From assembly GCA_963971535.1 (NCBI GenBank), contig OZ020594.1:117959127-118023126 (forward strand): 64,000 nt of DNA. Direction: 5' to 3'. This document shows, one piece after another, positions 1 to 56,480 of this stretch; positions within the stretch are counted from its first letter, which is position 1, and each line of letters opens with the position of its first letter. The position numbers and the translations under genes were made by a program. The notes under the pieces are model-generated. The model was not told the origin of the DNA, made no database searches, and saw only the letters and a list, made by a program, of their open reading frames with translations. This stretch comes from Notolepis coatsorum. Its lineage: Eukaryota; Chordata; Actinopteri; Aulopiformes; Paralepididae.

Positions 1-260
1 TACAGCGTCTTTGATCTGTTTACATCTTTTTTCGATTTTTTCCGTCTGAACTTCACCGCCGAGCTTTTGGAAGAAAATTTGAACCGGAAACTGCATTTCC
101 TCTCAAATTTCACTAGGTGGCAGTGTCCCCCTATTTTCTAACACTATCACAATAGGGGGAATATTGTACCCCACAATGAATCTGGCATTTGATTGGCCAG
201 CATACCTGGCCAATGTAACCACAGGTATAAAACGTTAGCGCGATCCCAGAATCGACAAGG
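1..260 (+). promoter_or_regulatory. Putative promoter/5' region of the piggyBac gene
   Basis: This stretch precedes the first exon. It has a TATA box (TATAAAA, 226-232), CCAAT motifs on both strands (about 191-195 and 209-213), a short inverted repeat (CCCCCTATT at 127-135, AATAGGGGG at 151-159) and a CTCF-like core (TCACTAGGTGGCAG, 110-123). Transcription would start near 255. The element's left terminus appears to lie just outside the window, because the first bases (CGTCTTTGAT) resemble sequence about 60 bp inside one end of the piggyBac MITE at 59462-61921. Promoter function is inferred. Confidence 0.5.
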
Positions 261-261
261 T

Positions 262-327
262 TTTGGAGGAGAGAGAGAGAGAGAGATAGATAGAGCGATA
301 GAGAGAGAGAGAGAGATTGAGAGAGAT
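262..327. repeat. GA-rich microsatellite
   Basis: Imperfect (GA)n with GATA interruptions, lying in the probable 5' untranslated region of the piggyBac gene. Confidence 0.9.
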
Positions 328-547
328 ATTTGAATTGAGATCAGCCTATAGTCTATATTTATAGTGTTATACAGTATAGTGGTAGTATCAGACTAATTGT
401 AAGGTTTCAGCTGTGCTTTAGAAAGTACTTAGTCGTGCTAAGTAGTAGTACTATTCGAGGGATTAGTGTGTAGTCTAGGTAGTATATTTCAGTAGTAGTA
501 ATAGTAGTTTGATCAGTTAGTAGTTTCATTTAGATTATTAGATCAGT

Positions 548-799
548 ATGAAGAGACGTAGTGTAGGTAAGCGAGGGGACAATCCGGCGGCGGGTCGCTT
601 TGTTCAGACGAAGCTGGCGTTTGGACCCGCGGTTGTTCGAGTAGCAGCAGCACCAACGACTTTGGTAGCTCCGATCGGAGAGAGCCGTGTTCGAGGAAGA
701 GGAAGGCTGCCGCTGTGGTCATAGCTTCTTCATGCGAGTCAGGGGACAGCGATTCGACCGCCCACGAATCTGATGGGAGCGCCGATTGGGAACCACCAG
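548..799 (+). CDS. piggyBac gene, first coding region (exon 1, or exons 1a and 1b)
   Basis: The ATG at 548 opens a basic start (MKRRSVGKRG). The region ends at a good donor (CCAG/GTAATT) after an acidic segment read in a different frame (CESGDSDSTAHESDGSADWEPP read in part). Read straight through, the ATG frame stops at 722-724. Two explanations fit. One is a one-base frameshift in a single exon. The other is a small 158-bp intron using the strong donor GTAAGC at 567 and the acceptor ending at 724, giving exon 1a 548-566 (6 codons plus 1 base) and exon 1b 725-799 (75 bases). The second restores the frame exactly and is again phase 1, but its acceptor has a weak pyrimidine tract. Confidence 0.55.
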
Positions 800-813
800 G
801 TAATTACACGGTC

Positions 814-814
814 T

Positions 815-846
<32 letters not shown>
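814..846. repeat. (TA)n(TG)n microsatellite
   Basis: Alternating TA followed by TG dinucleotides just inside the intron after the exon ending at 799. Confidence 0.9.
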
Positions 847-1030
847 AAACGTGTATTTGATGATTTACATACTGTGACTATGTAACGTTAGTTCGACAAA
901 CCAACGCCGATATGCATGTGATTGTGTGTGTGTGTGAAACGTGTATTTGATGATTTACCTAACGCTTATTCTGTGACTATGTAACGTTAGTTCGCCAAAC
1001 CAACGCTGATATGCATTTATTATATTCTAG

Positions 1031-1135
1031 CTCCGGAATCATCTGACGATGATCTCGGCTTGGGTCGGAGGTGTTATGAGTCTGATTCATCGCACGATTC
1101 AGACGTGGGACGCGGTGGTGGTCGACGGGGCAACG
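1031..1135 (+). CDS. piggyBac gene, acidic exon 2
   Basis: This 105-base exon has acceptor TTCTAG/CT and donor AACG/GTACGT. Read in the frame set by the neighbouring exons it gives an acidic, serine-rich stretch (APESSDDDLGLG, then YESDSSHDSD) and a basic RGGGRRGN end. Both edges are phase 1, so the exon could be skipped or duplicated without breaking the frame. Part of it is in fact duplicated near 1362-1391. The acidic N-terminal tail before the catalytic core is usual for piggyBac transposases. Confidence 0.75.
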
Positions 1136-1139
1136 GTAC

Positions 1140-2385
1140 GTCATGTTTACTAATGCAATGTGAATATTGTTTTACGTGCATGTTCAAATCGATAGTTGAA
1201 TGATATAGGATATAGTAGGCATGTACAGGCCACCATGTGCTACACGTTAGGTTGTAATGGTCTTGTGTGTGTGTGTGTGTGTGTGTGCATGTGCACGCCC
1301 TTTGAAGTGGCTCTTTGAAGTGTGTAGCTATCAATGTAAGTGATAATAGTTGCATGCTGGGCATGAGACGACGTGGTGGTGGTCGACGTGGTAATTGGTA
1401 TCATGTTGCAATGTGAATATTGTTTTATGTTCAAATCGATATAGTTGATGGCCATGTGCTGCACGGGTTGCATGGATGTGTGTGTGTGTGTGTGTGTGTG
1501 TAGATGCCAGCCCTTTGAAGTTTGTCTACATTTAGTTACATGGATGTGTGTGTGTGTGTAGATGCCTCACCCCATGCCATTTGATGTGTGTGTGTATGTG
1601 TGTGTGTGTGTGTGTGTGTGCATGTGCACGCCATTTGAAGTGTGTAGCTATCAATGTGTTATCATGTTGCAATGTGAATATTGTTTTATGTTCAAATCGA
1701 TATAGTTGATGGCCATGTGCTGCACGGGTTGCATGGATGTGTGTGTGTGTGTGTGTAGATGCCAGCCCTTTGAAGTTTGTCTACATTTAGTTACATGGAT
1801 GTGTGTGTGTGTGTAGATGCCTCACCCCATGCCATTTGATGTGTGTGTGTATGTGTGTGTGTGTGTGCATGTGCACGCCATTTGAAGTGTGTAGCTATCA
1901 ATGTGTTATCATGTTGCAATGTGAATATTGTTTTATGTTCAAATCGATATAGTTGATGGCCATGTGCTGCACGGGTTGCATGGATGTGTGTGTGTGTGTG
2001 TGTAGATGCCAGCCCTTTGAAGTTGTCTACATTTAGGTTACATGGATGTGTGTGTGTGTGTAGATGCAGGCCTCACCATGTGTCCATGCCCTTTGATGTG
2101 TGTGTATGTGAGTGTGTGTGCAGTACACACACACACACACACACAAGATCAAAAGGCATGAATCCTCTCCAACACCTTTGAACTTCGCAGTACATGGTGA
2201 GGCCTCTATATGCAAATTCCATTGATTACAGCACACACATACACACACACAATGGCATGGGCACATGGTGAGGCCTATATTTAAATGCATGGTTGTGTAT
2301 CATATGTAAAATTCCATTGATTACAACACACACACATGTACATGCTTTGATGTACAATGGCCGCTGATTTATTTTGTGTTCACAC
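1140..2385. repeat. TG-rich tandem duplications within an intron
   Basis: An intron full of (TG)n tracts and larger units of about 240-260 bp carrying the phrases GTGAATATTGTTTTATGTTC and GATGGCCATGTGCTGCACGG, repeated three to four times between about 1390 and 2040. Near 1362-1391 there is a degraded copy of the 3' end of exon 2 with its own GT donor, so the array seems to have begun as a duplication of exon 2 plus intron. Short CA tracts on the same strand (about 2122-2148 and 2230-2252) add inverted TG/CA segments. Confidence 0.8.
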
Positions 2386-2387
2386 AG

Positions 2388-2429
2388 GCTCCGAAACCGA
2401 ATCCGGGGCCAATACACCAACATGCTTGG
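2388..2429 (+). CDS. piggyBac gene, exon 3
   Basis: A 42-base exon with acceptor CACACAG/GC and donor TTGG/GTATGT. It reads GSETESGANTPTCL once the G from the previous exon is added. Both sides are phase 1. It is supported only by splice sites, length divisible by three and acidic composition matching its neighbours. Confidence 0.65.
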
Positions 2430-2518
2430 GTATGTACTAACTACATTTATGTATGTGTAAATGTATTACTATTGTGTTTTGTGAGACTTACTTACTGAAT
2501 GAATTTAATCCAATTCAG

Positions 2519-2590
2519 ATTCTGGCGCAGACCCTGCCGATAGTGACGCTGAGACTGGCAACGACATGGGATCACATTCTACTCCTGCAG
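2519..2590 (+). CDS. piggyBac gene, exon 4
   Basis: A 72-base exon with acceptor AATTCAG/AT and donor GCAG/GTAATT. It reads as an acidic segment beginning DSGADPADSDAETGND. Both sides are phase 1, continuing the pattern of the other exons. The following intron carries the 33-bp minisatellite. Confidence 0.7.
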
Positions 2591-2601
2591 GTAATTGTAC
2601 A

Positions 2602-2803
2602 TGGTGGTGACTGGCTGCTGCTAGAGCCTGGGCCTGGTGGTAGCTGGCTGCTGCTAGAGCCTGGGCCTGGTGGTGACTGGCTGCTGCTAGAGCCTGGGCC
2701 TGGTGGTGACTGGCTGCTGCAGGGCCTGGGCCTGGTGGTGACTGGCTGCTGCAGGGCCTGGGCCTGGTGGTGACTGGCTGCTGCAGGGCCTGGTCTGGTG
2801 GTG
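2602..2803. repeat. 33-bp GC-rich minisatellite
   Basis: About six tandem copies of a 33-bp unit (TGGTGGTGACTGGCTGCTGC plus a short tail). The unit length is divisible by three, so frames on both strands stay open across it. Those open frames are by-products of the repeat. It lies inside the intron between 2590 and 2864. Confidence 0.9.
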
Positions 2804-2863
2804 ATGGTAAATACAATGACAATACGTTGCCCTAGTGTAATGTATTACATCATGTGATTCTAG

Positions 2864-2926
2864 AACTGGATGCTAGTCTGGACATGCCGGAACCTGTTGC
2901 AGGGCGGAAACGCACATCTAAGAGCG
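2864..2926 (+). CDS. piggyBac gene, exon 5
   Basis: A 63-base exon with acceptor GATTCTAG/AA and donor AGCG/GTAAGT, the strongest donor of the set. It reads ELDASLDMPEPVAGRKRTSK followed by a serine. The GRKRTSK end is basic and could serve as part of a nuclear localisation signal. Both sides are phase 1. Confidence 0.75.
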
Positions 2927-3102
2927 GTAAGTTGGCCTCACTCTGCACACCACTTCCAGCTCTGACCTCTGACCCCCACACCACGTCCAGCTCTGACATC
3001 TGAACCCCACACACACTCACTCATTCACTCACACAGTTTGTAACTACGTGGCATATGAATGTCTACAGTAGGGGTGTTATAGTATATTTGTATAATTGAC
3101 AG

Positions 3103-4784
3103 GTCGTGGCGTGCGACGTGGAGGAGCGAAGAGCAGGGCTGCGATCCGCCAGGAAGAGGAGAATGCCTGGTCTCGTGAGGGCTGGGTGCCTCAAAGGATC
3201 CCCTTCACAGCCCAACCGGGGTTGCTCCAGGACGCCATGGCACTCAGATCTTACCGGCCTGCGAAATGGATGGATCTGTTCCTGACAGATGCTTTTCTGA
3301 ACTCTATTGTTGCCCAGTCCAACCTCTACGCTGAGCAGTCCATTGCCCGGCTGGACCCCACGCTAACCAGTAGCAGGGCACTGCTTTGGAAGCCCCTCAC
3401 ATTGAAGGAGCTGAAGAAGTTCCTCGGACTCAATTTCCTTAGCAGTGTCCTGCGGAAGCCTCGCGTGGACCAGATGTGGACCACTGACGACATGATGTAC
3501 ACACCGTACTACTCTGAGACCATGCCACGCAACAGGTTTCAATTGATCTGGCGATTCCTCCACTTTGCGGACAATACTTCCCTGGAGGTTAGAGACAAAT
3601 TGTGCAAAGTACGCCCTGTAGTCGACCATGTAAACACGAGGTGCAAGGAGCTGTACCAGCCTGAACGCGAGCTCGCCATTGACGAGGGGGTGATGGCATG
3701 GCGAGGCCGCCTGACCTTCCGGGTCTACAACCCAAACAAGCCCACCCGCTATGGTATCAAGTCTTACTTCCTGTGCGAATCTCGCACAGGATATTGCTTT
3801 TCATTTAAGCCATATTGTCGGGAAGGCTCGCTCCTGGGGGACACGGTCGTCGGTCTGCTTGGACGTCTGTCTGGGGCCGGCTATACGCTCTTTATGGACA
3901 ACTTCTACAACTCCGTACGTATGTCCGCCAGGCTCCGACAGTTGAGGACCGACGTCTGTGGTACCCTCAGGAAGCACCGGGGCGAGCCAGCCATCATCAA
4001 GAACATGACCAAACGTGACATCGGTGTGGGGGAGCGCATTGCGGTCAACAACAAGGAGGTCATGATCGTGGCATGGCGCGATAAAATAATCGTGAAGACC
4101 ATCAGCAGCTTCCACGAGGACACCATGGAAAAGGCGATGGTGTGGCAGAAGCAGAAGAAGGGCAAAGCGCTGAGGGTGGAGATGCTCAAGCCATCATCAA
4201 TCATGGAGTACAATAAATTCATGAACGGCGTCGATCAGCTGGATCACAATATATCGTACTATCCGGTTACACGTAAGACTGGAAAGTGGACCAAAAAGTT
4301 TGTGATGTATCTGATCCAAATATGTATGTTCAACGCTTTTGTCTTGTACAAAAAAAAGCACCCACAAGGGCATTACTCCAACCTCTTCCGGTTCACCAGG
4401 GCTGTGGCGCGGACCTACACAGACGGTAAGGAGAAGAAGATTCCTGGGGTGACAGCGGAGATGGAGGCGGAGGCAGGGGAGGAGGCAGGGGAGGAGGCAG
4501 GGGGTGGGGATGAGGAGGAGGCAGGGGCTGAGCAGGTGGGGCGTGTCGACCCTAGGGCCCCACTGGGGGACCCGCAGAGCAGATTAGTGGGTGGCTTTGT
4601 GAAGCATGTAATGGTTGCATACAAAGCCACCCCGAAGAAAAAGCTACCGTGTAGGAAATGTCGTGTCTGCAGTAGGCGTGGCATCAGGAGTGAGACCAGA
4701 TATTTTTGCACATCGTGCAAAGTCCCCCTGCATCGTGACAAATGCTTCACTCTGTACCACACAAAGAGGGATTTCTCTAAATAG
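3103..4784 (+). CDS. piggyBac transposase (PGBD4-like), catalytic final exon
   Basis: This exon carries the whole catalytic part of a piggyBac transposase, the cut-and-paste enzyme that excises DNA precisely and reinserts it at TTAA. It begins after the acceptor TTGACAG, in phase 1 with the upstream exons; there is no in-frame ATG at its start, so splicing is needed. Counting from the first open codon at 3096, the three expected aspartates are present: D196 in ELAIDEGV, D268 in LFMDNFYN and D380 in MNGVDQLD. A Glu/Gly-rich acidic linker (about 455-485) leads to a Cys/His zinc-binding C-terminal domain (about 519-555, CRKCRVC...CTSCKVPLHRDKC). No stop or frameshift interrupts it. With the two-exon reading of the first coding region, the spliced protein is about 685 residues, somewhat longer than the classic insect enzyme (594). 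It could be an active element or a domesticated copy. Matching terminal repeats around it were not found, so mobility is unproven. Confidence 0.93.
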
Positions 4785-4902
4785 TTTCTTTATTAGTTGT
4801 CATACAGAAGTACAGACTACTTCTAAATAATCCGGCACACAGAAGTACAGATTACTTCTAAATAATCCATCATTGTGTGATACAGACAGAACCATGTGTA
4901 CC

Positions 4903-4982
4903 GGTACATAGTATAGCTAGCTGAGTGTAGTATAGTATAGTGTAGTATAGTATAGTATATTGTAGTATAGTATAGTGTATGG
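4903..4982. repeat. TATAG-type simple repeat
   Basis: Imperfect tandem TAGTATAG/TGTAG units downstream of the transposase stop. The intervening 4785-4860 has a duplicated segment (ACAGAAGTACAGA, twice). Confidence 0.85.
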
Positions 4983-5332
4983 GTAGTTGCACTGTTTTCT
5001 GTACAAGACAAATGCGTTGAACACATGTATTTGGGCCACGGTTGTCGATATTGCATAGGCATGTTTGGACCACTTGCAGATGAGACGTTATGTTAGCGAT
5101 CTAGCTGTATCGACTCCATTCATAATTTGCATTGTGTGTGTATATAGTTTTTTTTTTTTTTATCTTTTTCCCCCCTCATTTTTACCGTTTGCACAGAACC
5201 AATGGTTGCTGACAGTCACCCAGTTTATAAAAGTATATACTGTAGGTAACATACCACACTTTTCTAATGCAGTCCATTGGCCTATTATTTATATACTTTG
5301 GAAGCATGTATTGGATATTTTTTGGTCCACAG

Positions 5333-5416
5333 ATCATCTGGCGCTTCATCCATTTATCAATGGACAATGCAGTCATCGATGCGAGAGACCAAGTAAGATA
5401 TGCCCTGTAGTTCATG
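5333..5416 (+). pseudogene. Degenerate fragment of a second piggyBac transposase
   Basis: Read from 5330 the sequence gives QIIWRFIHLSMDN, then ARDQVRYAL and a stop. It lines up with QLIWRFLHFADN...VRDKLCKVRP of the intact transposase (nucleotides 3540-3610), sharing the Trp-Arg-Phe-x-His core and the RD pair. The surroundings give no further coding match. It is probably a relic of an older, diverged piggyBac copy, or a captured exon. Confidence 0.5.
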
Positions 5417-5420
5417 TGAC

Positions 5421-6460
5421 GTGAATGTTACCAGCAAACTTCTAAATGCACTGAAACAATGGTTGGTTATCCTCCAGTGTTCACTTTTTATAAGGTATTG
5501 TCTTGGTAAATTACCATAATCCTATACTGTGAATGTTACCAACAAACTCCTAAATGCACTGAAACAATGGTTGGTTATCCTCCAGTGTTCACTTTTTATA
5601 AGGTATTGTCTTGGTAAATTACCATAATCCTATACTGTGAATGTTACCAACAAACTCCTAAATGCACTGACACAATGGTTGGTTATCATCAGCCAGTGTT
5701 CACTTTTTATAAGGTATTGTCTTGGTAAATTACCATAATCCTATACTGTGAATGTTACCAACAAACTCCTAAATGCACTGAAACAATGGTTGATTATCCT
5801 CCAGTGTTCGCTTTTTATAAGGTATTGTATTGGTAAATTACCATAATCCTATACTGTGAATGTTACCAACAAACTCCTAAATGCACTGAAACAATGGTTG
5901 ATTATCCTCCAGTGTTCACTTTTTATAAGGTATTGTCTTGGTAAATTACCATAATCCTATACTGTGAATGTTACCAACAAACTCCTAAATGCACTGAAAC
6001 AATGGTTGATTATCCTCCAGTGTTCACTTTTTATAAGGTATTGTCTTGGTAAATTACCATAATCCTATACTGTGAATGTTACCAACAAACTCCTAAATGC
6101 ACTGAAACAATGGTTGGTTATCATCACAGTGTTCACTTTTTATAAGGTATTGTCTTGGTAAATTACCATAATCCTATACTGTGAATGTTACCAACAAACT
6201 CCTAAATGCACTGAAACAATGGTTGGTTATCATCACAGTGTTCACTTTTTATAAGGTATTGTCTTGGTAAATTACCATAATCCTATACTGTGAATGTTAC
6301 CAACAAACTCCTAAATGCACTGAAACAATGGTTGGTTATCATCACAGTGTTCACTTTTTATAAGGTATTGTCTTGGTAAATTACCATAATCCTATACTGT
6401 GAATGTTACCAGCATATAATGCACAGCAACAATGGTTGGTACTGATGACTTGTCACCCAG
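5421..6460. repeat. 108-bp minisatellite, about nine copies
   Basis: Tandem copies starting GTGAATGTTACC(A/G)(A/G)CA. The first units begin at 5421, 5529, 5637 and 5748, giving a 108-bp period with one 111-bp variant (an extra AGC in the TTATCATCAGCC version). Later copies carry TTATCATCACAG in place of TTATCCTCCAG. The last copy decays after 6413. Confidence 0.95.
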
Positions 6461-6828
6461 TTTATTGAACATATTTTACAATAAAAATGTTCATGGCATC
6501 AAAGTTTCAAGTTTTCTGCATTGTAAAGTATTCTGTATTTTTGTATTTCTGTAATTGATATATTATCAATACAAGATATTATTACTTTATGAATGTGTTT
6601 ATCATGTATGGACGAATAAATTGAAAAACGGGTAGGTACAGAGCAACACAGTGTCTACAACACAGGAGCAGATTATGCACAGTACATGAATGAGAAACAG
6701 TCAAAATGTTTTTTTGTTTAGTTTATTGCATGCACATGATCTATAATACCTGATGGGTACAATATCTACTAACCTGATCGATATAATAGTATTACTGCAT
6801 TTCAAGTTTGTCAGTCAGTCGGACTGTC
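6461..6828. other. AT-rich spacer between minisatellites
   Basis: No gene seen. A possible polyadenylation signal AATAAA lies at about 6615. This could belong to the 3' noncoding part of the piggyBac element, but nothing confirms it. Confidence 0.4.
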
Positions 6829-7885
6829 AATCAATCAATCAATCAATCAAACAATCTATGAATCAAACAATCTATGAATCAAACAATCAAACATTCTATC
6901 AATCAAACGACCAACAAAGTAATCAATCAATCAAACAAATCAATCTATGAATCAAACTATCAACAAAACAATCAAACATTCTATCAATCAAATGACCAAC
7001 AAAGTAATCAATCAATCAAACAAATCAATCTATGAATCAAACGATCAACAAAACAATAAAACATTCTATCAATCAAACGACCAACAAAGTAATCAATCAA
7101 TCAAACAAATCAATCTATGAATCAAACTATCAACAAAACAATCAAACATTATATCAATCAAATGACCAACAAAGTAATCAATCAATCAAACAAATCAATC
7201 TATGAATCAAACTATCAACAAAACAATCAAACATTCTATCAATCAAATGACCAACAAAGTAATCAATCAATCAAACAAATCAATCTATGAATCAAACTAT
7301 CAACAAAACAATCAAACATTCTATCAATCAAATGACCAACAAAGTAATCAATCAATCAAACAAATCAATCTATGAATCAAACTATCAACAAAACAATCAA
7401 ACATTCGATCAATCAAATGACCAACAAAGTAATCAATCAATCAAACAAATCAATCTATGAATCAAACTATCAACAAAACAATCAAACATTCTATCAATCA
7501 AATGACCAACAAAGTAATCAATCAAACAAATCAATCTATGAATCAAACTATCAACAAAACAATCAAACATTCTATCAAGCAAATTACCAACAAAACAATC
7601 AAACATTCTATCAATCAAATGACCAACAAAGTAATCAATCAATCAAACAAATCAATCTATGAATCAAACTATCAACAAAACAATCAAACATTCTATCAAT
7701 CAAATGACCAACAAAGTAATCAATCAATCAAACAAATCAATCTATGAATCAAACTATCAACAAAACAATCAAACATTCTATCAATCAAATGACCAACAAA
7801 GTAATCAATCAATCAAACAAATCAATCTATGAATCAAACTATCAACAAAACAATAAAACATTCAACCAATAAAACAATCAATCAA
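6829..7885. repeat. 85-bp minisatellite built on AATC/CAAT words
   Basis: About eleven tandem copies of an 85-bp unit (for example ATGAATCAAACTATCAACAA at 7372 and 7457), flanked by (AATC)n and ending in (CATC)n. Since 85 is not a multiple of three and the unit lacks stops in some frames, it yields Asn/Gln-rich open frames in different phases (such as 7372-7662 and 7457-7747). These are not genes. One copy near 7515-7600 shows an internal deletion/duplication. Confidence 0.95.
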
Positions 7886-7923
7886 TCAAACCATCCATCC
7901 ATCCATCCCAGTCTAAATTGCTT

Positions 7924-8256
7924 TATAACACGTTCAGTACCTATTATCACCCCGCCGGCACACCTTTCATAAAAGTGCCTGTAACTTCTGTTCTAAAGAA
8001 TCCACCTGGATTTTTACCTTGTGTTGACCTTTTTTAACTTGTAATTGTGAACGAACGAAGACATGCAGAAACAAACGGTTTTTTGCATTGTGTACATCAA
8101 CTTGTCGTCTTCAAATGAGCCCAACCATTTCCCCATAGTTATAATATAAAATATAGAAATAGCTCCGCTAAGATCATGAGATATGCTAGAATCGTCCAGG
8201 AATCCTGGCAACCCACAGTCATTTTCCGGATTTTTGGCCGGCACCCAAAGTGTTAA
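7924..8256. mobile_element. piggyBac-like MITE or right end of a piggyBac element
   Basis: The right end GGCACCCAAAGTGTTAA (TTAA at 8253-8256) has the typical piggyBac terminal layout and matches the MITE end at 44298-44314 (GGCACCCAATGTGTTAA). A partly matching inverted start, ATAACACGTTCAGTACC, occurs at 7925, though its TTAA is mutated. Either this is a 330-bp miniature element, or 8256 is the right end of the larger element carrying the transposase gene. Confidence 0.5.
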
Positions 8257-8438: not shown

Positions 8439-8515
8439 CCGAACTCGTACCGAACCTTGACCACAATACCGAGGTACGTACCGAACCGTGGCTTCTGTGT
8501 ACCGTTACACCCCTA
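8439..8515. mobile_element. Terminal remnant of a hAT-like element
   Basis: Repeated TACCGAAC(C/T) words and the end ACCGTTACACCCCTA (complement TAGGGGTGTAACGGT) look like the outer end of a hAT MITE. A related end lies at about 55120-55201 (ACCGTCCCACCCCTA). No matching left end was found. Confidence 0.5.
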
Positions 8516-9404
8516 CCATACATACATTTATTCATTCATACTCATTCATCTAAACACCAATAGCACCAAAAGTCTTCATCCTCCTCCCACTGTACACAGT
8601 TGTCACACACTGGACCCACGACACTAATAGTCCATGGGCCAGAGCCCAAAATGTCACTTGTCGGTACCACTCTAGGTGACGAAACTTACATATAATTTTT
8701 TTAAAGATCTATGTCTGTAGTTGATATTTTGGTATGATAGACCTTCCTGAGTGTTAGCTGTATCATAATTATCAAGTCATGAAGTATACCCACCCCCTCA
8801 GGAAATTACATTTCAGATGCTGGTGCATATCCTGCTTTAGACTCACGTAGAGGACATCTGTCAATGTTTCACAATATTGTCTTTGGTATCATTTTAAAGG
8901 GGACTGTCTTTCATTCCAGCTAATATGTGAATCTTTCTGACCAATATAGAGGTCACTGGAGCTCAATTCAATCCAATTAAATTATCTTTAATGACCACCC
9001 AGCCAGGCTGGTGGAATTTGATTTTAGTGCAGCATTGTTACAGCTTTTGTTCCAACATAGAACATATAACATCACTTACAATACGTACATACTACATGCA
9101 GTTAAATACATAAATACATAATTACAAGACCACAATATCAGAGTTCAAGTTTATGTCCATGTCCATAGCAACAGAGGTAGGGGGTTGCAGGGGGGGGGGG
9201 GGGGGGGTTGCTACAGGGAGTTCAGTGTCCATATGGCAGTGGGGAAGCTCTTTCAACAACACACATTTTACACGATTTTCGCCTAAATGATATACTATAT
9301 TTTTGCCTTGTGTCATCTAGGAGCAACAGGGACACAATACAAAATCTACACTCAGGACCATAAGGATTCAGGAAATGTATAATATGCCTATACTATTTCT
9401 TGTC
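8516..9404. other. Unassigned repeat-like sequence
   Basis: No coding region seen. A run of about 18 G sits at 9190-9207. The segment around 8965-9130 (ATCTTTAATGACCACCCAGC, followed by an AT-rich stretch) looks like the 3' end of a retroelement on the minus strand, but the family is not recognised. Confidence 0.4.
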
Positions 9405-26303: not shown

Positions 26304-28340
26304 CCCAACTCAGGCGGCTGAGGTCGGAGAAGGAGGTGGCCAGGCTCAGTGGTGATGCTCATCGGTTCAGGCAGGCCAAGTACAAGTTCGCCAAAGAGGT
26401 GAGGGAAGCGAAACTTCGCTTCTCAGAGAAACTGCGGCAGCAGCTCTCTGAGGGGAATTCCTCCTCCGTATGGAAAGGCCTCAAGACCATTACCAACTAT
26501 AAACCGAAGTCACCACAGGCGCCCGAGAGCCTCCCCCTGGCGAACGAGCTTAATGAATTTTACTGTAGGTTTGAGAAAGAGGTTCCCCCCCGCCCTCTTC
26601 CTTAACCCACTCAGCCACAACCTCCATCCCCCCACCCCAGTGGGCCCCCCCCACACCCCCCCCCCCCTCTCTCTGTCAGTGTGAGAGAGGTGAAACGGCT
26701 GTTTTCTAGTCAGAATCCCCGGAAGGCGGCCGGCCCGGACTCTGTCTCCCCCTCTGCCCTGAAGCACTGTGCTGACCAGCTCGCACCGGTGTTTACCACC
26801 ATTTTTAATGCATCGCTGGACTTGTGTCATGTCCCAGCATGCTTCAAGGCCTCAACAATCATCCCCGTCCCCAAGAAGGCCAAGGTCACGGGCCTTAATG
26901 ACTACAGACCTGTTGCCCTGACCTCTGTGGTCATGAAGGTCCTGGAGCGCTTTGTCCTGGCCCACCTGAAGCTCATCACAGATCCTGTGCTGGACCCGCT
27001 GCAGTTCGCGTACAGAGCCAACAGATCCACTGAGGATGCTGTGAACATGGCCCTGCACTACACGCTGGAACATCTGGACTGCGCGGGCAACTATGTCAGG
27101 ATCCTGTATGTGGACTTCAGCTCGGCCTTCAACACCATCCTTCCACCCATCCTGGAGCACCAGCTATCCCTGCTGCAGGTGCCGGCCTCCACTCGCAGGT
27201 GGATTACCGACTTCCTGTCCAACAGGTCTCAGCGGGTGAGGCTGGGGAAGAGCATTTCCAGCTCTAGGTCCACCAGCACCGGTTCCCCGCAGGGCTGCGT
27301 CCTGTCCCCACTACTGTTCTCCCTGTACACCAACAGCTGTGCCTCTCTCCACCCCTCGGTCAAACTCCTGAAATTCGCTGACGACACCACCCTGGTGGGT
27401 CTCATCTCCAGGGGGGACGAGTCGGTCTATAGGAGGGAGATCGAGAGGCTGCAGAGCTGGTGCAGCTGCAACAACCTGGAGCTCAATGCTCAAAAGACAG
27501 TGGAGATGGTAGTGGACTTCAGGAGGAAAGCAGCCCTGCCTCCTCCCATCATACTGGGAGGGGGAGGCACTCAGGTGGCCTCCGTGGAGTCATGCCGATT
27601 CCTTGGCATGACCATCTCCCGGGATTTGAAATGGGAACTCAACATCACAGGCCTGCTCAAAAAGGCCCAGGGGAGGATGTTCTTCCTCCGGCAGTTGAAG
27701 AAATACAAACTGCCGAGGACCATGATGGCCCAATTCTACACGGCCATCATTGAGTCCATCCTCACCCACTCCATCATCTCCTGGTTCCCCGCTGCAGCGG
27801 CAAAAGATCTCGCCAAGCTGCAGCGGGTGATTCGCTCCGCGGAAAGGGTGATCGGCTGTCCCCTGCCCTCCCGGCTCCCTCAGGTCCCTGCACGACTCCA
27901 GGGCGCTGAAGAGGGCGAGGAAGATCATGGCCGACCCCTCCCACCCCGGTCACAGCCTCTTCACCCTGCTCCCCTCTGGGAGAAGGCTGAGGATCCCAAA
28001 GGCTGTGAAAGCTCGTCACAGACTGAGCTTCTTCCCCTCAGCCGCCAGGCTGATCAATGCCTCAGGCCCCCCCCCCCCCTCCCCCCTCTGCCCCCAAGTG
28101 ACACTGGCACAATGACACTGACAGCACTAGTCCTTACTGGAACTCTGCACTCTACACTTTATATATATAATATATATATGTATTTAATTGATTAATCCCC
28201 CACTGCACTGTTTTTTGTCCTGCGTCTGTGTTGGCGTTTACTGTGAAAAAAGAAAGGAAACGCATACACTGTAACGCTGCAAAAATTACCAATGTGTTTT
28301 TACACAAATGGCTTAATAAAGGAATCTGAATCTGAATCTG
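26301..28340 (+). mobile_element. 5'-truncated Rex1-like (CR1/L2 group) LINE
   Basis: A non-LTR retrotransposon inserted into the zinc-finger gene. The TSD is AACTAAATGGTTT (26287-26299) against AACTAAAAGGTTT (28341-28353), 12 of 13 bases identical. The 5' end is truncated: the endonuclease is missing and the copy begins in the linker before the reverse transcriptase. The 3' end has AATAAAGGAATCTGAATCTG, a (TGAATC)n tail. An RNA made here would run antisense to the zinc-finger gene. Confidence 0.93.
26336..28116 (+). pseudogene. Rex1-like reverse transcriptase ORF, frameshifted
   Basis: The pre-palm linker (26336-26605; RFRQAKYKFAKEVREAKLRF) is separated from the reverse transcriptase frame (26681-28195) by a stop and a C-rich tract. 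In the second frame, counted from 26681, motif A is [11 protein letters not shown] with the Asp at 145. Motif B is [20 protein letters not shown]. The catalytic KFADDT has its Asp pair at 234-235. Near 27875 a small indel shifts the frame. The C-terminal block ([20 protein letters not shown], then [12 protein letters not shown]) continues in another frame from 27927 to about 28115. The catalytic residues are present, but the frameshift and missing endonuclease make it non-autonomous. Family: Rex1 by motif recall, CR1/L2 group with more certainty. Confidence 0.9.
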
Positions 28341-28353
28341 AACTAAAAGGTTT

Positions 28354-30877
28354 CTATCCAGTATATGTTCTCATGTGTGTCTTCAGATTTGTTATGGTTT
28401 CTCTCCAGTATGAGTTATCATGTGTGTTTTCAGTCGTCCCTTCCTACTGAACCCTTTCCCACAAACTGAACAAACACAAACTGAACAAACAAAAGCTCTC
28501 TCTCCAGTATGGGTTCTCATGTGTGTCTTCAGATGTCCGTTCCCATTGAACCCTTTCCCACAAACTGAACAGTTAAATGGCTTCTCTCCAGTATGAGTTC
28601 TCATGTGGCACTTCAGATTTGCCTTCATACTGAACCCTTTCTCACAAACTGAACAGCTAAATGGTTTCTCTCCAGTATGAGTTATCATGTGTTTCTTCAG
28701 ATTTCCTTGGTTATTGAACCCTTTCCCACAAACTGAACAAACAAATGGTTTCTCTCCAGTATGAGTTATCATGTGTGTCTTCAGATTTCCTTGGTCATTG
28801 AACCCTTTCCCACAAACTGAACAAACTGGTTTCTCTCCAGTATGAGTTATCATGTGTGTCTTCAGATTTGTTTGCTGACTGAACCCTTTCCCACAAACTG
28901 AACAACTAAATGGTTTCTCTCCAGTATGAGTTCTCATGTGGCTCTTCAGATGTCCCTTCCTACTGAACCCTTTCCCACAAACTGAACAACTAAATAGTTT
29001 CTCTCCAGTATGAGTTATCATGTGTCTCTTCAGATCTCCCGTCCTACTGAACCCTTTCCCACAAACTGAACAAAGAAATGGGTTCCCTCCAGTATGAGTT
29101 ATCATGTGGCTCTTCAGTGATGCCTTCACACTGAACCCTTTCTCACAAACTGAACAGCTAAATGGTTTCTCTACAGTATGAGTTCTCATGTGTATCTTCA
29201 GTTGTGCCTTTACACTGAACCCTTTCTCACAAACTGAACAACTAAATGGTTTCTCTCCAGTATGAGTTCTCATGTGTATCTTCAGATCTCCCTTCGTACT
29301 GAACCCTTTCCCACAAACTGAACAACTAAATGGTTTCTCTCGTTTCTCTCCAGTATGAGTTCTCATGTGTATCTTCAGATCTCTCTTCCTACCGAACCCT
29401 TTCCCACAAACTGAACAACTAGATAGTTTCTCTCCAGTATGAGTTATCATGTGGCTCTTCAGATGTGCCTTCATACTGAACCCTTTCTCACAAACGGAAC
29501 AGCTAAATGGTTTCTCTCCAGTATGAGTTCTCATGTGTCTCTTCAGATGTCTTTGCTGATTGAACCCTTTCCCACAAACTGAACAGCTAAATGGTTTCTC
29601 TCCAGTATGAGTTCTCATGTGTTTCTTCAGATTTCCTTGGTCATTGAACCCTTTCTCACAAACTGAACAGCTAAATGGTTTCTCTCCAGTATGAGTTATA
29701 ATGTGTCTCTTAAGATCTTCCTTCATACTGAACCCTTTCTCACAAACTGAACAGCTAAATGGTTTCTCTCCAGTATGAATTCTCATGTGTCTCTTCAGAC
29801 GTGATTGCAGACTGAACCCTTTCTCACAAACTGAACAGCTAAATGGTTTCTCTCCAGTATGAATTCTCATGTGTGTTTTCAGATCGCCCTTGCTACTGAA
29901 CCCTTTCCCACAAACTGAACAGCTAAATGGTTTCTCTCCAGTATGAGTTATCATGTGTCTCTTCAGATTTCCTTGGTGATTGAACCCTTTCCCACAAACT
30001 GAACACCCAATTGGTTTCACTCCGGTATGATTTTTTATGTGTATCTTCATATCTCTCTTCTTGCTGAACCCAGGCATGTTAGACAACGTTTGTATTTTCT
30101 GTGTCTTCTTTTGTTTTACTGCCATCAAACCTGGACCTCCACTCTCCTTCCATTCATCACCGTCATCAGTCTCAGCTCCAGAACTGTCATCATCACTGTC
30201 ACCAGTAGTTAGAAAACAGTCTGAAGAGAGAGGCTGGCTATCTCTAGTTGGTTCTAAATCACCAGCTGGATCTAAGTTACTGGCTAGTTCTGCTACTCCA
30301 CAGTCCTCTCCTTCAGGTTCTTTTTTCATGTGTTCAGTTGAGGTGCTGGGTAAAGAGTATGCTTCTCTGTTTTTCTCCCTTTGGGTTTGAAGAGGCTGGA
30401 AGGACAGAGCGTTCTCTTGACCATCTTCACATTTCACTGGGTCTACTGTGATCTTGGAGAGATCAGCTTCTTCCAGCCCTTGATCTAGTTCATGTTTAAT
30501 CTGCTCTGGGTCCCGGTTTTGGCTGAGTTGTGAGGACAGAGTGTTCTCACCTTCATTTTCACATTTCATAGGTTGTAAGGTCATCTTGGAGCCATCAGCC
30601 TCCTCTAGATCTTGACATAGTTCCTCATGTTCCTCTTTAATCTGGAGGGGCTCTGTGTCCTGGGTTTGGCTGAGCTGTGAGGACTGAGGTTTCTCTTCAT
30701 CATGTTCACTCTTCACAGAGACAGGAAGCTCCTCTCCCTCCTGACTGATCCAGAGTTCCTCCTGTTCCTCTTTCATCTGTAGGGGCTCTGGCTCCTCCTG
30801 GACCAGACTGAGGCTCCTCTCCTGCTGCTCAGGGGGAACCTCTTCTTCACAGATAAACAGCTGTAAGGCCATGGAGT
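28354..30877 (-). CDS. FiNZ-type C2H2 zinc-finger protein, main exon
   Basis: The frame runs from 30893 to 28392. A good acceptor (TTCTTTCTAG) ends at 30878, so the exon probably starts at 30877 with the ATG at 30872 ([17 protein letters not shown]). Upstream exons were not found. The N-terminus matches the fish-specific acidic FiNZ-type domain ([40 protein letters not shown]), followed by two related acidic repeats ([15 protein letters not shown] and [12 protein letters not shown]). From residue 297 come 19 tandem C2H2 fingers (CSVCxKGFxxxxxLKxHMxTH) joined by TGEKP linkers. A degenerate finger precedes them ([17 protein letters not shown]). Helix residues vary (for example HQGN, SKGD, LQSR, QQRH), as in sequence-specific DNA binders. 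Oddities: TGEKREKPF in one linker, and a duplicated CSVCVCSVC in the last finger. The frame ends at TGEKP-stop because most of the next finger is deleted. FiNZ proteins are thought to act as nuclear repressors of transposons; that role here is inferred. Confidence 0.9.
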
Positions 30878-30975
30878 CTAGAAAGAAGGGCATACAATCA
30901 TTTAAATGTAATTTGTTGTAACCATTGCTTTTGAAAGTAACAAAGGGTCAGGTCACTATTTCACACTACTCTCTT

Positions 30976-43357: not shown

Positions 43358-44314
43358 TTAACACATTAATTGCCAATGACAAGTATACTTGTTATTGGCC
43401 ACCATGCGTTGAGTGCCAACAACGAGTAAACTCGTTTTTATGATCGTTATTTCTTTTATTCGCTATTGGCATTCATAATTCATCCAGGAAGCCTCCTGGA
43501 GCCAGCTGGACCCTGTCTGATATTGCAACGCCTCAATACCGCCGCTTGGTGGATTTCGGGCGAGTTACACTCCACTGTGACTCTAAACCGAAAGTGGCGC
43601 TCTGTGCATCGGGGAAAAAGCTCTGCCTTGTAATATCTTGAAACGTGGATCAATATACACACCTCGAGTGCATGGTAGCTCTTTCGAGATGCAAGAATCA
43701 ATATGCTTTCGGCGTTTATTGTGTCATACAAACGGAAAATGGATCTAGCAGATCAACGTCAAATAATTGGATTTTTTTTTCTCCAGACGCATCGGCCACA
43801 GGTAAGAGGAATCTAGCGTTATGTCCAGCTCGATTGTCCATTTCTTTCATTGCAATCTGTCAGATCAACGTATGGTGTATTACTAAAGAAAGCCGTTAGT
43901 GACAATCAAAGAATCATAAACCCTAACCCCCCCCCCCCTTTCCTTCACACATGATGGAGCATAATGTATCATATGCATTTGACATTTTTTAAATAGCGTG
44001 TATAGGGACGAAACGCCAATCGATAATGTATAATACGCGCCGGGGCCTATAGCGTGCATTCTAGGAATTACTGCTATACAGTCTAAAAACACTTATATTC
44101 TCGACGGTACGAACACGACAATGTATGAATGGAAAAATATAACGTTCCCACATCCGGAACGATGGATACCCGATGTTGAATGGGACATAGTAATGTCGAT
44201 ATAGCTATAATATTTAAAAAGTTATAGCCCTGCAAAGAAGGTGAGCCACATAGGGTTACAGCACTGGCAGAGGGTGGTAAAGATGGGCATACTGCGTGGC
44301 ACCCAATGTGTTAA
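43358..44314. mobile_element. piggyBac MITE (957 bp), TTAA-flanked
   Basis: TTAA at both ends (43358-43361 and 44311-44314). Ends TTAACACATTAATTGCCA and, reversed, TTAACACATTGGGTGCCA. The interior GTTATAGCCCTGCAAAGAAG (about 44221) is the reverse complement of CTTCTTTGCAGGGCTATAAC in the MITE at 59462-61921, and the net lengths agree (957 and 958). It has no transposase. The piggyBac gene at 548-4784 is a possible source of enzyme. Confidence 0.88.
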
Positions 44315-53524: not shown

Positions 53525-56480
53525 TTTTTTTATTTTTTATTTTTTTTATTTAACCTTTATTTAACCAGGAAGTCCCATTGAGATACAAGATCTCTTTTGC
53601 AAGGGAGACCTGGCCAAGATGACAGCAATAACACCCGCAAACATCAGACAGCAATAAAATGTGCGGTACATCACACAAGAACATAATAAAAGTGCATGTA
53701 CACAATACATCACACGTAAACACAAAAACACAAAACAGAACAGTCTACATAACAGTAAAAGTGTACGACAGTAAAATACAGGGCAATACAGTAACTCTGC
53801 AGTTTTGCAGCTGGGACCCGACTAGAGAAAGCAGCGACACTCTTCCTGTAGGAAGTTATGTAATACAGACCTAAACTCGCAGAGGGAGACCAGGGTATCT
53901 AAGTGGATATGGTCCTGTAGCCCATTCCATGCCCAAGGTGCGAAGCTTGAAAAAGCTGTTCTTCCTAGTTCAGTGTTTATTCTCGTTTTTTTTTTAAAGT
54001 AGCCATCTTGTGGACCTGGTATGGTAGCTGCTAGAGGCAAAGCTAATTAGGTTGGAAACAGGGTTCGAAATTAACGGGGGCTTGGGGCATAATGCCCTTG
54101 AAAATGGACAAAATGCCCTCGAAAATCAGTTAAGGGGGACAGAAAATGCCCCCGACAGTTTACTAATTATATATATATATTTATCCGGTAATGGAGCGTC
54201 TGTGTATCGTACGGTTCAGATGACGCACAAATAAAAAAATTCATTTGGCGGAGCCGGGAGAGGTGAGCACTGGCTGCAGGCAGCAGCAGCAGCAGCAGCA
54301 GCACTGCAGCCAGGTGCTAGTCAGTTTGTGTAAAAATGGCAAGCACAATATAAATCAATCTTCATTACGACTTTAAAAACATAGCCATTAACATTACATA
54401 GGCCTACACACATCTTGCCATAGCGTTAGCAGTTTGTACAACACAACGCACATTTTAACTATGGTAGCTAATACTGTACAGTCAATGAAATGTCACTGTA
54501 GCTACTAGCTACTGTAGCAGAGGAGGAAATGGGAGTCTGAGAGGCGGGGTGTTTAAAGACAATGATAGGCGTTTATTCAACATCCAAGAAGGCTAACATA
54601 CAACTGTGTTTTACTAACTCCAACCAGGACTATTGCCGCTTTCGTGCTGCTTGTTGATGTTATGATCTCCCCCTAACGTTACCGGAGCTGAAGGTGCCAC
54701 ACGCTAAAATGTCCGTGGGGACCCGGCGCCAACCCATAGATAGTTCCAACTCACCGAATTACGTAATCCACCACAGTTGCACTCAATATTTAAATAATGT
54801 TAGTCTAAATAAATGTAGACAGATACATAATAATTTCAAGCAGAAAACGAATCGTTCCATTAAGAACTGACAATCAGGGAATTTAAACATGGTTGACAGT
54901 TTTATTTTGTGTTTATATTAAAGAAAGGAAAGTCTAGTGCTGGCTGAGAATATTGTTTGTTTGCACTAAGTTAATACTTTGACAAATGTAGCCTATATTT
55001 TTCAGTCAGTTCGGTCTTTGTGTGCCAAACATTATTTAAGGCTGTAAACACTGTAACACTGTAAACCTTTTTATTTATTTTTTTATAAATGAGAAGCATG
55101 TTTAGATTTTAATAAAAATTAACGTATATCGAACCGAAAACCGTGACCCCAAAACCGTGATACGAACCGTACCGTCCATTTTGTGAACCGTCCCACCCCT
55201 ACCGTTTATCAAAAAAATTCAGTGCCCCCGAAATACAAAAAAAAAAACAGAAAATCAATTAAGGGGGGCAAAAAAAGCCCTTGACATTTTTTTTTAAATT
55301 TCTAACCCTGGTTGGAAAGATATAGGGGAAGCTTCCCTATGATGGCCTTATATATAAAAACAAACATGTGGGATTTCCTCCGTACGTACAGAGAGGTCCA
55401 TCCTACCATTTGGTAAAGCACACAATGGTGAGTAAGCCCTTTGGCACTAGTGATGAAGCGCAGAGAAGCATGATACACACTGTCTAGCTTTTTTAGCATT
55501 GAAGAGGCAGCATGCATATATATTATGTCACCATACTCCATAGTCAATTACAGACAGGAATGTGGCTTGAACAAGTTTCTTTCTGGCCTCAAAAAAAAAG
55601 CATCGTTTGTTGCGAAAGAAAAAAACAAGTTTTAGTTTAAGTTTCTTTGTGAGGTTTCCAATATGCACTTTAAAAGATAGCTTTTCATCCAGCCATAGCC
55701 CAAGATACTTGTAGGATGAAACATTTTCTATGGTTGCTCCCTTTAGCGTAACGATATGAACATGATTCACTGGCTGTGAGCAAGCCCTTGTGAACATCAT
55801 GGATTTAGTTTTCTTTGCATTTAAAACTAGTTTAAGATCAAAAAGGGAGGTTTGAAAACAATTAAACGCAGCTTGGAGGTTCTCAATCTGGAGTATAGTA
55901 TACAGGATTGTATCGTCCGCATAAAGATGCATCTTGGCTGTCTGGATTTTATTTCCCATGTCATTTATAAAAATAGAGAATAAAACCGGAGCCAAAATAG
56001 ACCCTTGGGGAACACCTTTGTTGATTTCTAAAAAACTTGATTTGTAGTTCTCTGCAAATATACATTGTGTTCTGTCTGAGAGGTAATTTCTGAACCAATT
56101 TACCGCTTCCTGTCAAATGCCAATGTTGTCCAGTCTATCCAGTAATAGCTTGTGGTCTACGGAGTCAAATGCTTTTGATAAATCAACAAACAATGCTGCA
56201 CAATGTTGTTTATTGTCAAGTGTGTTGATTATGTCATTAGCCACTAGCATGGCTGCAGTTATGGTACCATGTCCAGACTTGAAGCCTGACTGAACCTCAC
56301 TTAGGATGTTATTTTCTAATAGGAATTGCTTTAGTTGAATGTTCACAAAGGATTCAAAAACTTTGGCCAGGACAGGGAGCTTAGAAATGGGGCGATAATT
56401 ATTAACATCTGAGGGGTCCCCACTTTTTAATAATGGAAGGACAAAAGCAGACTTCCACACTTTGGGGATGGTACTAGTCA
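53525..56480 (-). pseudogene. L2-like LINE reverse transcriptase, frameshifted, minus strand
   Basis: Runs on the minus strand from about 56480 to the 3' end near 53525 (complement TTAAATAAAGGTTAAATAAA). The first frame (56481-56113) has WKSAFVLPLLKSGDPSDVNN, YRPISKLPVLAKVFESF, ILSEVQSGFKSGHGTI and motif A LFVDLSKAFDSVDH. The second (55995-55528) has the catalytic LYADDTILY and KYLGLWLDEKLSFKVHIGNL. The third (55547-55302) begins at MEYGDIIYMH. After the hAT at 54059-55310 the C-terminus continues (54040-53822, ELGRTAFSSFAPWAWNGLQD). Several frame breaks and stops make it inactive. The endonuclease region is absent. Confidence 0.88.
54059..55310. mobile_element. hAT element (1,252 bp) with CAGGGTTCGAAATT ends
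   Basis: Exact TSD GTTGGAAA (54051-54058 and 55311-55318) inside the LINE. Ends CAGGGTTCGAAATTAACGGG and, reversed, CAGGGTTAGAAATTTAAAAA. It has a (CAG)n tract at 54280-54302. A second hAT-type right end (ACCGTCCCACCCCTA, ends 55201) lies inside it, so another insertion is probable. Confidence 0.93.

Follow-up and report, generated by a model that had tools for sequence, protein, structure and literature searches.

The closest described relatives of the element analysed here are piggyBat of Myotis lucifugus and piggyBac, transposons for which loss of N-terminal CK2 sites raises activity (PMC11707139, available in part). A typical piggyBac element is 2472 bp long, and types of up to 9.51 kb have been reported (PMC10813416, available in part). 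PGBD5, a domesticated piggyBac-derived gene of chordates, is single-copy, lacks three of four conserved aspartates and has introns within its transposase domain (PMC3902484, available in part), while Teratorn of fish is a fusion of about 180 kb with a herpesvirus, with terminal inverted repeats starting CCYT (PMC10175614, available in part). The window, that is, the whole stretch of 64,000 nucleotides (nt) from Notolepis coatsorum that was analysed (assembly GCA_963971535.1, contig OZ020594.1, positions 117,959,127 to 118,023,126, forward strand), contains at its left end a piggyBac element of about 8.3 kb. The locus most likely, with a probability that we put at roughly 0.9, represents a recent insertion from a young piggyBac family that is autonomous, present in high copy number and equipped with a transposase gene of several exons. 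Of that family the window copy is, with high probability, a damaged and now defective member.

The Pfam domain DDE_Tnp_1_7 matches the single catalytic exon at 6e-80, and zf-Tnp_2 matches the C-terminal cysteine-rich domain with 24.5 bits against a cut-off of 24. Alignments to piggyBat (PDB 9c0f, E 3.9e-100, query residues 20-420 and 483-556) and to 6x67 (7.5e-34), which we take to be the piggyBac of Trichoplusia ni, bring three aspartates (in IDEG, MDNF and GVDQLD) into register with both proteins; these are presumably the catalytic residues. The preservation of catalytic aspartates and zinc domain that an earlier reading of the sequence by itself (the sequence-only reading) had proposed is thus in agreement with domain matches and alignments. 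Like piggyBac, the element has a TTAA target and the catalytic domain, and its transposase is more distant from piggyBac than from piggyBat. It shares with piggyBat the catalytic domain, the aspartates, the GVDxxDQ motif (with H for Q in the window copy), the cysteine-rich domain and N-terminal CK2-type motifs, as reported for piggyBat in the available part of PMC11707139. Unlike in piggyBat, five introns, all phase 1, interrupt the coding sequence of the N-terminal tail, and the element is 8.3 kb long with tandem arrays and with inverted repeats starting CACT. In the literature searched (titles and beginnings of abstracts, with most subscription journals not covered), there was no report of a mobile piggyBac with a multi-exon tail. 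We place the family in the piggyBac superfamily as a new member, notable for its unusual gene structure and for its departure from the CCYT rule; it may already be catalogued in libraries of eukaryotic repeats.

Copies are labelled by locus: L001 is the window copy, L002-L030 and L032-L034 are other copies, and L031 is the DNA that adjoins the window on its left. The left end of the element, TTAACACTTTAACTGCC, lies in L031, starting 71 bases before window base 1, and its TTAA coincides within a base with the start of homology to L032, L033 and L034. The right end, GGCACCCAAAGTGTTAA, finishes at base 8256, the exact end of homology to L032. The sequence TTAACACTTTGGGTGCC is the left inverted repeat of L033 and L034 and recurs inverted at their right ends; the left inverted repeat of the window copy has 3 mismatches to it in 17 positions. 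The TTAA-flanked terminal repeats that the sequence-only reading had advised seeking, also to the left of the window, are therefore present, and the insertion at TTAA, the TTAA at both ends and the short terminal inverted repeats are those by which the superfamily is defined. Both ends were read at TTAA within different flanks in L004, L007, L016, L032, L033, L034 and the window copy. The left end alone was read at TTAA in L011, L013, L020 and L024; a right-end stretch was read only for L013, and no right end occurs in the stretch examined. The left 120 bases are whole in L012 and partial in L008 and L010. Sequence of the TAGGGGTGTAACGGTAC type is found in both flanks in opposite orientation (8445-8517, and the left flank in L031), which suggests that an older repeat was the site of insertion. 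A stretch related to this flank sequence also occurs at 55129-55203.

Comparison of 18 copies (the window copy, L032-L034 and 14 others) yields a gene of six exons (Table 1) and five introns, all GT-AG and phase 1 and all located before the catalytic domain, with the catalytic and zinc domains in the last exon. Exon 1 was sought in the 17 other copies and was readable in 15, in every one of which it is continuous from the ATG to the equivalent of the donor at 799. It measures 316, 325 or 346 nt, in frame, in 11 of these, is out of frame at 314, 315 and 317 nt in L012, L024 and L007, respectively, and measures 316 nt in L011; in the stretches examined of L003 and L005 neither exon 1 nor exon 2 was located, and in that of L005 exon 3 was missed as well. 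Exon 2 has 102, 105 or 108 nt in 15 of the 18 copies (two not found; one partial, in L011, which is cut short), exon 3 has 42 or 48 nt in 17 (one not found), and exons 4, 5 and 6 have 72, 63 and 1676-1700 nt, respectively, in all 18. AG and GT are present at every measured internal boundary. Exceptions were met outside the 18: exon 4 of L021 has a 1-base insertion, and L017 matches exon 4 only partly. No match to exon 3 or 4 occurs within the short loci of L014, L018 and L028; a genome search located both exons further upstream in L014, L028 and L005 (C7:95107186, C30:17178245 and C1:58078575), indicating a longer intron 4 there, and did not reveal them for L018.

Among the copies measured, intron 1 ranges from 225 to 408 nt, intron 2 from 722 to 2307 and intron 5 from 174 to 178, intron 3 has 89 nt throughout, and intron 4 has 243-325 nt except in L005, where it reaches 4132. 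Introns 2 and 4, which contain tandem repeats (1399-2067, 247-bp units; 2602-2804, 33-bp units), vary in length between element copies. The case for real exons rests chiefly on this changeability of the introns, set against exons that keep the frame wherever they were measured. The sequence-only reading had drawn a chain of seven exons with phase-1 edges; the phase and five of the exons, including those of 105, 42, 72 and 63 bases, were upheld by the comparison, while its first junction and a separate 75-base exon were not. The exons are not recognizable as ancient copies of one another, the best of the 10 pairs being equalled or beaten in 73 of 500 shuffles.

Table 1. Positions of features of the piggyBac element, numbered from the first base of the window
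Feature	Positions	Strand	Basis or remark
piggyBac element	1..8256 plus 71 bases outside the window (left TTAA and inverted repeat)	+	homology limits with L032, L033, L034; ends in other copies with different flanks
Possible core promoter TATAAA	226..231	+	sequence only
Exon 1, ATG to phase-1 donor, shortened by 64-bp deletion	548..799	+	copy comparison
Private 64-bp frameshifting deletion, point	688..689	+	comparison with other copies
Exon 2, 105 nt, symmetric phase 1, acidic	1031..1135	+	
Decayed duplicate: exon 2 tail, donor and intron 2 start	1370..1448	+	alignment; head of 247-bp intronic repeats
Exon 3, 42 nt, symmetric phase 1	2388..2429	+	
Exon 4, 72 nt, symmetric phase 1	2519..2590	+	
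Exon 5, 63 nt, symmetric phase 1, basic patch GRKRTSKS at end	2864..2926	+	
Exon 6, transposase catalytic domain and cysteine-rich zinc domain, stop 4782-4784	3103..4784	+	
Private change, NGVDQLDH for NGVDQLDQ	4247..4247	+	motif comparison
Three decayed pieces of another piggyBac transposase	4864..5411	.	4864-4908 and 4992-5135 inverted; 5336-5411 direct
108-bp tandem array inside element	5421..6411	+	
85-bp tandem array inside element	6833..7874	+	
Right terminal inverted repeat with TTAA	8240..8256	+	

In the N. coatsorum genome (3.42 Gb), 78 copies were scored of 2305 first-look candidates, all of them close, with 97-100% identity across the query; since the list favours close copies, this number is a lower bound. 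Across 30 copies compared at 1860 sites, pairwise differences range from 0.16% to 1.78%, the window copy is 0.43% from its nearest relative, and private changes average 3.2 per copy. An unbroken spliced frame of 757-771 amino acids with the same intron positions is present in 11 of the 18 copies compared; in four the frame is lost in exon 1 (in the window copy through its deletion, in L007 through one added base, in L024 and L012 through the loss of one and two bases), and three are incomplete (L003, L005 and L011). The near-identical copies suggest that the family has been recently mobile, and the recent activity proposed in the sequence-only reading is borne out, for the family, by the close copies and their matching TTAA ends. 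Intact relatives would make the transposase, which would bind the inverted repeats and move copies by cut and paste into TTAA. With its many near-identical copies, and with unbroken transposase frames in 11 of the 18 examined, the family makes a promising candidate for a further active system.

The sequence-only reading had instead taken the window copy for an intact transposase that begins at MKRRSV, is spliced from 566 to 725 and owes its preservation to selection or domestication. From 548 through this junction the reading frame is indeed open for 685 amino acids, with GT-AG sites in phase 1. However, the window copy is missing 64 bases of exon 1 between 688 and 689, which puts the exon out of frame, and a genome-wide search for the exact sequence spanning the deletion point gave a single hit, which lies in the window. 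The GT donor proposed at 567 reads GA in L033, L034 and L010. Because exon 1 is continuous in all other readable copies and the deletion is private, the supposed intron 567-724 is coding sequence and the 566/725 junction an artefact of the deletion. The catalytic exon also carries a private Q to H change near a catalytic aspartate, at a position where Q stands in 31 of 31 other loci with the motif matched (one copy counted twice, L002 being L032; L024 unmatched). The copy is thus not intact and is one among many, and its preservation as a working transposase is very improbable.

Selection on the window copy fares no better. Nonsynonymous and synonymous (N:S) variants of the catalytic exon were counted in the 30 copies, with the codons starting at 4437 to 4560 left out and a neutral expectation of 2.25:1. 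Variants confined to a single copy stand at 59:27, a ratio of 0.97 to the expectation, which is neutral; those in two copies stand at 6:5, and those in at least three copies at 16:16 (ratio 0.45, p = 0.033). Compared directly, single and shared variants do not differ significantly (Fisher p = 0.085). These counts fit a lineage that is under mild constraint while jumping and whose individual copies drift after insertion. Since the frame is broken in exon 1, the open catalytic exon of the window copy reflects its youth as a recent insertion; host selection is not needed and is without support. The element shares with PGBD5 a piggyBac-derived gene with introns, but here the transposase domain is a single exon and the aspartates are kept, and the many copies and TTAA ends rule out a domesticated gene of the PGBD type. 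Teratorn, too, has a piggyBac transposase with a TTAA preference in fish, and piggyBac-herpesvirus fusions are described as common in teleosts in the available parts of PMC5822658 and PMC10175614. That the transposase studied here belongs to such a fusion is nonetheless barely credible: the whole element spans 8.3 kb between mapped ends, against about 180 kb for Teratorn, and within 1-8256 all stop-to-stop frames other than the catalytic exon, on both strands, are at most 145 amino acids long, these frames not having been searched against viral families. The mapped ends rule out a fusion for the window copy; larger relatives in the genome were not sought.

The symmetric phase-1 exons proposed in the sequence-only reading hold up in the comparison across the 18 copies. 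Phase-1 introns and exon lengths in multiples of three make frame-neutral skipping possible in principle, in any combination. Host splicing might accordingly include or skip exons 2-4, change the CK2 sites of an inhibitory tail and hence alter transposase activity, as the higher activity of piggyBac and piggyBat without N-terminal CK2 sites would lead one to expect. CK2-type motifs (S/T-x-x-D/E) were counted in the N-terminal part. L032 has 11, of which exon 1 holds 2, exon 2 holds 3, exon 3 holds 2, exon 4 holds 4 and exon 5 none, so that 9 of the 11 lie in the skippable exons 2-4; across the 11 unbroken copies the number is 11 in 10 copies and 10 in L016. By analogy with piggyBac and piggyBat, the acidic tail encoded by exons 1-4 may act as an inhibitory tail, a brake that splicing could release. 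Use of the exons as cassettes is nevertheless unlikely. Constitutive exons must keep the frame as well, and conserved multiples of three are therefore no evidence for skipping; moreover, a tail rich in Ser and Asp easily yields CK2-type motifs by chance.

The copies scored in the genome offer no natural example of a lost or doubled exon 3. A search with a spliced probe, in which 40 of 626 candidates were scored, all of them found through exon 4, showed exon 3 exactly once beside exon 4 in 40 of 40 copies, with neither loss nor doubling; copies found through exon 4 could not reveal its own loss. Exon 5 lies within 1 kb in 29 of the 40 and in the others probably beyond longer introns. None of the 40 gave a contiguous spliced match, so the many intronless copies that, according to the sequence-only reading, would have spoken against its exon chain, and with them processed copies, did not appear in this set. 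The unit of exon 2 tail, donor and intron 2 start is present in several copies in L033 and L034; the intron repeats thus appear to reach into exon 2, but whole exons were not seen to multiply. The exon layout permits a direct test of whether splicing can set the N-terminal brake of piggyBac transposases.

Several observations weigh against the reading of the locus as a recent copy of an active multi-exon piggyBac family. The inverted repeats start CACT, in conflict with the CCYT quoted as a rule for the superfamily. The left end of L009 is disrupted and its right-end match stops three bases short, the left end of L008 is without its first 23 bases, and no left end was found in the stretches examined of L003, L005 and L006. 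The 73 of 78 scored copies whose matched catalytic exon is free of internal stops belong to a set picked by protein similarity to the window, in which intact and close copies are over-represented. The six-exon gene with five phase-1 introns fits the conservation of frame and splice sites across copies, and its splicing is deduced from that conservation. Finally, nucleotide diversity (pi) reaches 0.013 for exon 5 and 0.011 for exon 6, while the 59 and 176 intron bases adjoining them have values of 0.001 and 0.002; the window copy was counted twice here, and once in the N:S counts and the pairwise differences. This lower variability of introns than of exons, unlike the outcome of simple purifying selection, may stem from recombination between subfamilies, from selection or from chance. 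Within 2805-4784 (L002-L030 and the window), exon 6 has mid-frequency variants that the neighbouring introns lack.

The element is poor in its own target sequence. When the tandem arrays are set aside, window positions 1-8256 and the 71 bases to their left contain 5 TTAA against 21.6 expected from dinucleotides, and none of 2000 simulated sequences had so few. TTAA is the lowest of 255 tetramers tested in the element and ranks 81st of 256 in the 55.7 kb to its right; it is absent from 1-547 and 4785-8033. An expectation based on trinucleotides, 12.1, gives a weaker depletion. In L032, 8 of the 12 TTAAs fall within a stretch of about 1 kb (about 2952-4002 of L032) that is missing from the window copy. 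Experiments in cells have shown that piggyBac can integrate into TTAAs of its own (PMC3952818, available in part), which makes purging of TTAA a plausible adaptation. The depletion suggests avoidance of self-insertion, with the single family counting as one case; the probable non-autonomous element described below, with 3 TTAA against 4.4 to 6.1 expected, is not clearly depleted. The same literature search turned up no natural element described as depleted in TTAA. Whether suicidal autointegration has left its mark on a natural element could be tested on this scarcity of internal TTAA. The combined proposal of an active family with a CK2-phosphorylatable inhibitory tail in cassette exons, in which splicing would set activity and the element's own TTAAs would have been purged against self-insertion, is a long shot, a little less likely than cassette use taken separately.

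Other features of the element and window include decayed pieces of another piggyBac transposase downstream of the gene, which match exon 6 by blastn with E values of 2e-5 (4864-4908), 1e-9 (4992-5135) and 8e-6 (5336-5411); of the second, inverted piece, at least 4992-5034 is also present in L032, L033 and L034. Rfam at gathering thresholds returned nothing in the whole window. A sequence of about 957 bp at 43358-44314 has TTAA ends and inverted repeats, TTAACACATT...TGCC, that resemble those of the large element, and is probably a non-autonomous element; just past its right end, about 51 bp of the left flank are repeated. The window also contains long open frames of 851 amino acids (28392-30947, minus strand), presumably a C2H2 zinc-finger array, and of 529 amino acids (26606-28195, plus strand), which appears to be reverse-transcriptase-like. 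The sequence-only view that nearly everything around the transposase is decayed was thus too strong.

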